From positions 1 to 32,745 of the forward strand of contig CANHSO010000008.1 of the NCBI GenBank assembly GCA_947463705.1: a stretch of DNA of 32,745 nt, given 5' to 3'. Below are positions 6,504 to 27,687 of this stretch, piece after piece; position 1 is the stretch's first letter, and every line of letters begins with the position of its first letter. Source of the DNA: Bacteriovoracaceae bacterium (lineage in GTDB: Bacteria; Bdellovibrionota; UBA1018). Under the pieces are notes generated by a model. The model had not been told where the DNA came from. It worked only from the letters and a program-made list of their open reading frames with translations, and searched no databases. Made by a program: the position numbers and the translations under genes.

Positions 6504-6769
6504 ACCTGGTTCTACTCAAAAAAAACCGTCAGCGTTTAGTACAGCTTGCATCGGGCAGTCAATAGATAGTGAGTTGGCTCCAATACGACTACCTGCAACT
6601 GCAGCTGGTCTGATCGAGCCAAGGTTACGAAAATGAACAACTCCCTCTCCCAATCGCTACAGTAAAAGGCTTTCTATAAAAGAGATCTCCTTAGGTAGCC
6701 ATTTTATCACACATTTCCGCGTGCAATCCCGATTTGAACGCAATAGATTATCAACGTCCGGGGGAAACT

Positions 6770-8209
6770 ATGCGATTTTGCCATTTGTCCGTTTTCTTAC
6801 TCGCCTTGGTCTGCACTCTGTGGCGCAGCCCAAGAGCAGAGGCCATCACGATTCTTCCATCTCAGTCGTGCGCGAGCACTTGGGAGGGAAAATCACTGAG
6901 CCAAACCCAGTTTGATCCTCTCCAAGACGCAGACTACCGTGCTTACCAGAATCGCCTGCGGGCCAAAAGCTGGCACCGAGAAAAGTGCAACAAGCCTTGG
7001 ACCATTCTCATCTCGATGATGGTCTCACCTGACCTTGAAAAATATGCCATTGCTGACCTTTTGCAGTTAGAAAAACAGATCGAAGGAAGTGCTCTGCAGG
7101 CCGATGTCATTATTCAAATCGAAGAGCAGCAGTCTCGACGGGTTCGACGCTATCATCTCCACCAAACCTCAACCAGTATTCCAGCTCCAAATACATCAGA
7201 AGAATTGGCCCAGCTCAGCTTCAATCAACTTAAGTCCCCAATCATCTCAGAGTTTTACGCTCACTCCTTAATTCCTGCTCGAAAACGATTTGCTAATTTT
7301 GTCCGCTGGGGAGTGCAAGACTATCCATCTGAGAATTTAATGCTCGTATTCTGGGGACATGGCAAAGGATGGCAGACCCTTTCAGAACTCAATCTAAGAG
7401 CAACTCTAGCAAAAATTCAATGTTGGCGAAAAAAGCCGCTCGACGTCCTGGCCTGGGACGCCTGTTTTATGCAAAGCCTAGAAGATGCGGTCGAAGTTGC
7501 CCCCTGGACCCGATTTGTGTGTGGCTCCGAGGATATCGAAAGCTGCGCCGGCTATGACTATACCAACGTCGTTCAGGCAGTTACCCACCCTCAGCAACAT
7601 TCCTCCGATCCAGCTCTCCACGTCGCAGCCTCTCTCCCCACTCTTTACGAAAAGTCTTTTAATTCAAATGGAGGCTCGCAAGCTAACCTCGATCCAAAGA
7701 TCACGGAGACCCTTACAGGGAGCACACTTAAGTCTCAGGAAGTTCTCGAAAATTTGCTTCCTGCGCTCAACCAACTGGCTCAAGAGCTCCAGAAGTGGAC
7801 ACATCAAAGCGATATCTGGCAATCAGTTAAAATGGTCATCAGAAAAAGCCCCACCTATGCGGGAGGGACCCGAGACCTTGGGATATTTTTAATGGAATTG
7901 CTAGGAGTCATTAAGGACATTCGACCTGAAAAAACCACACGAGATGTAGATTACCTCACTCAACTCATCGAGCACACCTGCATGGTTTTGAACCGAAGTA
8001 TCCTCAGAACTGCACTAGGAAAACAATACGCATTTCCAGAAGATCGTCAGATTTGCCAGGCCGCTGGCGTATCCATTTTTTTACCGCGAACATCGAGTGA
8101 ATTTCACGAACAAATTAAACTCATCAGCCGATCTGAACTCTATCTATCCCATCCTTTTTTTCGGGTCCGAAGCCCTTGGGCGGGATGGGTGAGATCGATG
8201 TACCGTTAA
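6770..8209 (+). CDS. Secreted clostripain-family (C11) cysteine protease
   Basis: The signal peptide MRFCHLSVFLLALVCTLW with cleavage after AEA, and GGGGGA seven bases before ATG 6770, fix this start over an in-frame ATG at 6734. The 479-residue product carries the C11 catalytic pair: His in LMLVFWGHGKGW (about H197) and Cys in LDVLAWDACFMQSLED (about C232, the D-A-C motif). The family cleaves after Arg (or Lys) and often matures by self-cleavage in the stretch between or after these motifs. A periplasmic or extracellular role is inferred from the leader. The last 66 bp overlap the 3' end of the convergent ppsA gene. Confidence 0.85.
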   Translation: MRFCHLSVFLLALVCTLWRSPRAEAITILPSQSCASTWEGKSLSQTQFDPLQDADYRAYQNRLRAKSWHREKCNKPWTILISMMVSPDLEKYAIADLLQLEKQIEGSALQADVIIQIEEQQSRRVRRYHLHQTSTSIPAPNTSEELAQLSFNQLKSPIISEFYAHSLIPARKRFANFVRWGVQDYPSENLMLVFWGHGKGWQTLSELNLRATLAKIQCWRKKPLDVLAWDACFMQSLEDAVEVAPWTRFVCGSEDIESCAGYDYTNVVQAVTHPQQHSSDPALHVAASLPTLYEKSFNSNGGSQANLDPKITETLTGSTLKSQEVLENLLPALNQLAQELQKWTHQSDIWQSVKMVIRKSPTYAGGTRDLGIFLMELLGVIKDIRPEKTTRDVDYLTQLIEHTCMVLNRSILRTALGKQYAFPEDRQICQAAGVSIFLPRTSSEFHEQIKLISRSELYLSHPFFRVRSPWAGWVRSMYR

Positions 8210-26181: not shown

Positions 26182-26415
26182 CGTTTTAAAGGAGAATGAG
26201 CGAACAAATCAAGATTTCTTAAAACAGGTGAGCCAATTGGATGGGGGCTACCGGACGACGATCCATCTCCTCATTTCGGTCTCAGTAGGGTCAGTCCCAG
26301 AATGGGTCAATTCTCCGATTAATTTTTAGATGAATATTTTTTTTATCATGCTAAATCAAATAACTCGAACGTCGGGGGAAAAAAAGGGGACTATATTAAA
26401 AGGAGCTCATTCGTC
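26182..26415. promoter_or_regulatory. Divergent promoter region of addB and the Hint gene
   Basis: The 234 bp separate two outward-facing genes, so both promoters must be here. The right half is A+T-rich with a T-run (around 26338). AAGGAG at 26400-26405, ten bases before ATG 26416, is a good ribosome-binding site for the Hint gene. No riboswitch or strong inverted repeat was recognised. Confidence 0.5.
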
Positions 26416-27687
26416 ATGAGTAAGAAGCAGACCGTCCTCAAGCAGTCGCTCAGCATTTTTCTAGCCAGTTGTATTTTGGCATGGAGCGCTTCAGCAAACC
26501 CGACCCAACCGGAAAAATGCACCTCCATCAGCCCTCGAAGCTTCATCCAAAAATGTGCTCGCGTGACTCTCCCCATCCTCATGGCAGCGCCCAGTGCAGA
26601 AGCAGGCTATTGGGCAGCAGGAACCACGCTCAATTGTGCCTCCTGGGACGCTCTGACCTTGCCTGGAGTTGCGTCAGTAGGCTGCACCCAATTTGGAAGA
26701 ACTGATCACGGAGTCACCTGCTCACTCTATGGATTTAGCTATGCAGGACCGATCTCAGGAGTCATCTGCACCCAGATCTACACGCCAGATGAATTGGGAT
26801 ATCGCGACTGTACACAAGTTGGATATGACACCATTGGTTTCGACGCCGGAGTCGTCTGCGACCAATATGGACTTGACTACTCTGCACCCTATTGCACCGC
26901 AACCGCGATCGCACAAGCTCGAGGAGTCGAAAATGTCATGTGCAGTCAAATCTACTGCCCATCCTGCCTCCACTATGTCTCTGAGCAACAGTGTTTTCCC
27001 GATAAAACTTGGGTAAAAGTTCAGATGAATGACGGAACGATTCAAATTAAATCCATGCGAGACCTTCGTTTGGGCGATCCAATCCTAGCAGGCGTAGATG
27101 CTCAAGGGCACGAAGTATTCTCACCGGTCATCGACGTTCCGCATCGACAACCTGGAAAAAAAGGGGCGTTCCTAAAAATCACAATTGGAGGATCCTCATT
27201 TTTAGTATCACCAGAACACCTCATTTATGTTGCAGGTGCACTTGATGAAGAATTTGAAGTGTCAAAGGCAACGACCAAGTTCGCTAAAGATTTAGAGCCA
27301 GGAGACATCCTTTGGAATCATGATCAAAAAACATTAAGACTCGAAGTCGCACCAGAACCAATTGATGAAAGAGGGATGTATGCTCCTGAAACCAAATCAG
27401 GAACCCTGGTTGTTTTTGGTAGTGAGGATGCAATCCATGGGGCGCTGGTCAGCTGTTACTCAACATTCAAGCATCCGTCCATTACCCGAAACTACTTTAA
27501 GGCTAAACACGCGTTTTCCCCTCCTCAACAAATTGAGGAAAACACGGTAAAACGCCAGAGTCGCTTTGAAGACGCTCTGCTAAGCGGCTTACAGTCGATT
27601 TACTCATCTGGATTTTCAGAGAATTCAAACCCTGAAACTGAATCCAGCCGGCCTCAAAAGAAAGCTCTAAGAGGAACTGAGAACTAG
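26416..27687 (+). CDS. Secreted Cys-repeat protein with a Hedgehog-type Hint domain
   Basis: The 423-residue product has a signal peptide (cleavage near residue 27, SASA). Residues 70-185 hold four repeats with exactly 15 residues between paired cysteines: C74/C90, C102/C118, C132/C148 and C160/C176. Most second cysteines read G-V-x-x-C-[TSD]-Q. A CPSC follows. Residues 193-350 are a Hint (Hedgehog/intein) domain: C193 in QQCFPDKTWVKV, MRDLRLGDPILAGVD, FSPVIDVPHR, SPEHLIYV (H268; Ser in place of the usual Thr), DLEPGDILW, GTLVVFG, and HGALVSCYS (C347, like the conserved late Cys of Hedgehog). Hint domains cleave themselves at the first Cys by an N-S acyl shift; Hedgehog proteins pass the fragment to cholesterol. 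I infer release or anchoring of the Cys-repeat part. Self-processing is not shown. A hairpin terminator follows. Confidence 0.8.
   Translation: MSKKQTVLKQSLSIFLASCILAWSASANPTQPEKCTSISPRSFIQKCARVTLPILMAAPSAEAGYWAAGTTLNCASWDALTLPGVASVGCTQFGRTDHGVTCSLYGFSYAGPISGVICTQIYTPDELGYRDCTQVGYDTIGFDAGVVCDQYGLDYSAPYCTATAIAQARGVENVMCSQIYCPSCLHYVSEQQCFPDKTWVKVQMNDGTIQIKSMRDLRLGDPILAGVDAQGHEVFSPVIDVPHRQPGKKGAFLKITIGGSSFLVSPEHLIYVAGALDEEFEVSKATTKFAKDLEPGDILWNHDQKTLRLEVAPEPIDERGMYAPETKSGTLVVFGSEDAIHGALVSCYSTFKHPSITRNYFKAKHAFSPPQQIEENTVKRQSRFEDALLSGLQSIYSSGFSENSNPETESSRPQKKALRGTEN

Follow-up and report, generated by a model that had tools for sequence, protein, structure and literature searches.

A Hedgehog-class Hint domain behind a Cys-repeat module in a putative secreted bacterial precursor

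In the window, by which we mean the whole 32,745-nucleotide stretch analysed, the gene at 26416-27687 (+) encodes a bacterial protein whose C-terminal half is confirmed as a Hint domain of the Hedgehog class, not of the usual bacterial intein-like kind. A sequence-only reading had claimed a secreted Cys-repeat module joined to a Hedgehog-type Hint in a bacterium, and tests of family, profile, fold, tree and conservation all agree with it. The protein belongs to the family, keeps the catalytic positions, lacks the Asn of intein and BIL C-terminal cleavage, is chromosomally encoded and is under purifying selection. We propose, with a probability of about 0.6, that leader, Cys-repeat domain and Hog form an exported precursor in which a thioester would arise at C193 and the Cys domain would be freed by a small nucleophile, most probably as an ester to an alcohol.

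The open reading frame, of exactly the extent first reported, encodes the whole precursor of 423 residues and has orthologues in two congeners; a Shine-Dalgarno-like AAGGAG (26400-26405) lies 10 nt upstream of the ATG, and all features given here are on the + strand. By reading of its sequence, the leader (aa 1-63, 26416-26604) carries an N-terminal, signal-peptide-like hydrophobic segment (aa ~9-27) and, further on, another hydrophobic stretch, short and with the conserved PSAEA-G at its end; PSAEAG is the sole strongly conserved part of the leader in the alignment of the three congeners. A lipoprotein reading of LASC at C19 was dropped, as the distant congener has no LASC. The leader is followed by the Cys-repeat domain (aa 64-192, 26605-26991), presumed to be the mature N-terminal product, by the Hint domain (aa 193-349, 26992-27462), assigned from PF01079, an AF2 model and Foldseek matches to 6TYY and 1AT0, and by a tail (aa 350-423, 27463-27684) at the place of the SRR/ARR. 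PF01079 is the sole Pfam family in the protein, and the N-terminus is a Cys repeat without a Hedge signalling domain. Elsewhere in the window, 6734-8209 (+) encodes another cysteine peptidase, of the clostripain family (PF03415; 491 aa).

The Cys-repeat domain is 129 residues long, with Cys at 74, 90, 102, 118, 132, 148, 160 and 176. The spacings from C74 to C176 are 15-11-15-13-15-11-15, that is, four C-x15-C units starting at C74, C102, C132 and C160 (26635-26976). These four repeats, already noted from the letters, are beyond chance (4 x15 pairs against 0.6 expected when Cys positions were shuffled within the domain, P = 0.001), and their spacing is identical in both orthologues. Just ahead of the Hint Cys, a C-P-S-C motif (aa 181-184, 26956-26967) is invariant in the alignment of the three species; we would guess from the sequence that this motif, which lies beside the scissile bond, and the conserved C347 could permit redox control. 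The repeat is confined to this one gene within its own genome, and the domain had no relative in the PDB or in viral contigs and no credible one among 369 genomes of the phylum. A match in G204 (E 0.006) was judged to be chance, since it comes from a large repeat protein without the spacing. The full-length AF2 model, built on three rows, had a mean pLDDT of 34.5 and was left unused for this domain.

The class of the Hint domain was assigned by several comparisons. The search against Hint families that had been suggested returned PF01079 only (E 2.1e-21, aa 189-368, profile positions 9-180 of 213), at 77 bits against a curated Pfam cut-off of 29.7. The three congeners scored 77, 74 and 65.5 bits, spanning positions 9-180 of 213, and none of them matched PT-HINT, Intein_splicing, Vint or Hint_2 in Pfam. 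Local alignment to the Hint of Drosophila Hedgehog, whose sequence was typed in and then matched letter for letter to 6TD6, scored 108, compared with a maximum of 54 in 500 shuffles. Sequence matches in the PDB (HMMER) were Drosophila and human Hedgehog only, with Drosophila best; reciprocally, Drosophila Hedgehog as query ranked the window protein first in the test set (22.9 bits), the next-best bacterial Hint reaching 10.6. The AF2 model of the Hint part, built on 18 rows, had block means of 64-95 across aa 194-348, mostly above 75, and its top structures in Foldseek were 6TYY (E 3.5e-6) and 1AT0 (E 5.1e-6), with inteins and BILs ranking below; TM-scores were modest (0.43 by target length) because the model rests on so few rows. 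Trees with long branches and two animal Hogs, one of them incomplete with a gap, joined the three bacterial proteins to animal Hedgehog at 100/100 on all columns and at 92/98 on the N-terminal half taken by itself, a result that motif J is unable to drive. We class the protein within the Hog group, distinguished by its new N-terminal module and by a His that occurs naturally as general base, and do not call it a Hedgehog.

Cys193 (26992-26994), aligned with Hedgehog C258, is the predicted nucleophile of the N-S acyl shift; it is followed by F and is invariant in 18/18 Hints aligned. Alignment also placed motif B at Ser265-x-x-His268 (SPEH 265-268, 27208-27219; Hedgehog T326-x-x-H329) and motif J at Ser346-Cys347-Tyr348 (27451-27459; Hedgehog SC400Y), within SCYS 346-349. 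C193, S265-x-x-H268 and C347 are invariant across the three genus members and SCY is found in all of them. The first Cys, SPEH and SCYS, which the sequence-only reading had picked out, occur and are conserved in each of the three congeners, and close homologues have kept the catalytic residues whose loss there was to count against the idea. From the longer HGALVSCYS only SCYS survived the comparison, HGALV being QGVLV and QGTVV in the congeners. The residue before C193 is Q192, Ser in the distant congener, and not Gly. His243 (27142-27144) takes the place of the Hedgehog general base Asp303 (D46 of the Hint) in HMMER alignments to 1AT0 and 6TYY, where it pairs with the His of the D46H mutant 6TYY. 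It is H in all three congeners, and the same position holds His in three of the 15 further Hints compared; on sequence grounds this may be an old bacterial state. The D303H change in Drosophila Hedgehog keeps structure and activity and widens substrate tolerance, with more sterols accepted (review, PMC9163320). The C-terminal His-Asn of inteins and BILs is not at its expected place in the window protein.

Across 369 genomes of the phylum, PF01079 matched in 19 genomes from 16 genera, the window genus included; apart from the three congeners, the matches were weaker and mostly partial. Nearly all of the phylum Hints that were read end in the ‘(V)HN’ of BIL/PT-HINT, and the exceptions (L021, L022, L023) also have no SCY motif; no other Hint of the phylum has motif J. 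The seven that were tested matched several Hint models, six of them best to PT-HINT or Intein_splicing; for L008, PF01079 was best, yet over profile positions 11-91 only. Hints of the BIL/PT-HINT type are scattered through 15 other genera of 182 (L008, L009, L011, L012, L014, L015, L019, L025 and others), where they sit C-terminally or mid-protein in large repeat-rich, Cys-rich or TG-repeat proteins, at times two in one protein (G185).

The tail, of 74 residues, fits the SRR/ARR in position and size. A helix at 354-361/365 was predicted in both AF2 models and a second at 385-392 in the three-row model only, both at low confidence; the helices of human SHH are at 372-390 and 432-447 (PMC7906309). 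The proposal that the tail recalls the lipid-recognition region of Hedgehog stands for position and size but fails for the letters, whose likeness to the Hedgehog SRR falls short of significance (shuffles gave P 0.025, marginal, and P 0.24, no similarity), and motifs K (HPR) and L (HWY) are absent. Human SHH requires H374, R381 and HWY (PMC7242414), all missing here; several eukaryotic non-Hedgehog Hogs likewise have no such SRR motifs (PMC2362128). KHAFSPP, put forward as part of the resemblance, is not a general feature of the tail, the distant congener having RRTMFPP in its place. Between the two closest species no part of the protein is better conserved than the tail (97%, dN 0.012, dN/dS 0.05), which is variable in the distant congener (32%). 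We treat it as a candidate region for adduct recognition and not as a proven sterol site. A sterol made by the bacterium itself is unlikely, because the three genus genomes gave no squalene epoxidase and no SQHop_cyclase_C match, within the limit set by their completeness of 77-93%; a sterol would need an outside source.

Among 97 relatives, the whole protein was confined to the same genus (G001, 93% identity; G002, 48%). When 84,980 species were scanned by peptide pattern for close relatives, only the G001 record, a Bdellovibrionales MAG, came back, and no relatives were found in plasmids, phages or viral contigs. Homologues with a different N-terminal module, which the sequence-only reading had suggested looking for, did not turn up in these searches. 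In the window's own genome (G000), the gene is flanked by a PD-(D/E)XK nuclease gene on one side and by purQL-type genes on the other; in G001 it adjoins the same purQL-type genes on a 200-kb contig. In G002 (L003 1254-2582) it stands beside photolyase and amine-oxidase genes, not purQL-type ones, and the locus has therefore moved within the genus. Contamination was ruled out by the chromosomal neighbours in G000 and G001 and by GC and GC3 of the gene, which resemble those of its neighbours. The dN/dS of the gene is about 0.12, indicating purifying selection.

What we infer about export, cleavage, the nature of the nucleophile and the purpose of the precursor runs as follows. The leader would direct export of the precursor, and the Cys repeats would fold by disulfides. 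Cys193 would attack the carbonyl of Q192 (Ser in the distant congener), giving a thioester by an N-S acyl shift. His243, in place of Asp303, would activate a small nucleophile to open this thioester, and the Cys domain would be freed, most probably ester-joined to an alcohol, such as a membrane lipid or a sterol-like compound, presented by the tail; alternatively, the thioester might simply be hydrolysed. The precursor may serve to anchor a small Cys protein at the surface or to release it in a controlled way.

The most serious competitor, which we hold to be possible though clearly the less probable, shares the Hog-class fold and makes the protein a self-releasing protease: hydrolysis or a small thiol would open the thioester and the Cys domain would leave without an adduct. 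Hydrolysis is known for other Hint domains (PMC7242414), and this reading would suit a tail without sterol motifs and a genus with no match to a sterol pathway enzyme, but close species keep the tail under strong constraint, which suggests a role for it beyond the Hint fold. A catalytically dead or purely structural domain seems improbable to us. Asp303 is replaced, the -1 Gly is absent and T326 has become Ser, yet the nucleophile, the motif B His and the motif J Cys are invariant even in the congener at 48% identity, and Hedgehog still functions with His as its general base (PMC9163320).

We give very little credence to an ordinary Hint of the BIL-A/PT-HINT type that resembles Hedgehog by chance. 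Although such domains are common in the phylum, as the 16 genera with a PF01079 match show, and some of the Hints compared share the His at the Asp303 place, the window protein has no PT-HINT or intein match and no C-terminal HN, it has the SCY motif and the tail, and both tree and reciprocal scores favour Hedgehog.

Our preferred reading, the exported Hog precursor, can be set against known systems. It shares with the Hedgehog Hog (Hint plus SRR; Drosophila 1AT0/6TYY/6TD6, PF01079) a signal-type leader and a secreted N-terminal domain, Cys1, the motif B His, G-x-x-A-P-x-T-x-x-G-[TA]-[LI]-V-V, the SCY motif J and a C-terminal tail with two predicted helices. Unlike Hedgehog, it is bacterial and has Cys repeats instead of the Hedge domain, His for Asp303, Ser for Thr326, Gln or Ser for the -1 Gly, and no recognisable SRR motifs K and L. 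Eukaryotic Hogs with unrelated N-termini (warthog, groundhog, protist and algal; PMC2362128) likewise join a secreted, often Cys-containing, fast-evolving N-terminal domain to a Hog that has motif J and whose adduct-recognition region is divergent, but all those described there are eukaryotic, and no relative of our Cys-repeat domain was found. Bacterial BIL-A/PT-HINT domains (PF07591, PF14890) have the same fold, first Cys and motif B and occur in the same phylum, whereas their end is (V)HN and no tail follows; the window protein has no such Asn and leaves PF07591 and PF14890 unmatched. An intein differs too, as our Hint is followed only by a 74-residue tail, with no second extein and no His-Asn at the expected place. 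The Hint-like proteins described by Buerglin in 2008 (Myxococcus, Stigmatella, Serratia and others; PMC2362128) are likewise bacterial, some of them secreted, and have two conserved Cys upstream; these were described as divergent from Hog, intein and BIL, and we set them apart by that description.

Later work has proposed that Hog descends from bacterial toxin HINTs (PMC12419801, PMC3482391). We found no report of a bacterial Hog with motif J in the non-subscription literature searched, and we claim no priority; a bacterial Hog that is chromosomally encoded and has both motif J and a tail gives the question of Hog origin a concrete object. One idea, rather doubtful though worth stating, is that Hedgehog-type cholesterolysis with a naturally occurring His base allows the bacterium to join a sterol or another lipid alcohol, which prey or host might supply, to the C-terminal end of its secreted Cys-repeat protein, and also that the eukaryotic Hog either arose from bacterial Hogs of this sort or gave rise to them by an early transfer. 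The D303H swap made in the laboratory, which widened the range of sterols, has its counterpart in the natural His at the general-base position, so the window Hog may also be useful for ligating small alcohols to the C-termini of proteins. Bacteria, too, may carry out the chemistry by which animal Hedgehog acquires its cholesterol, or an ancestral or variant form of that chemistry.
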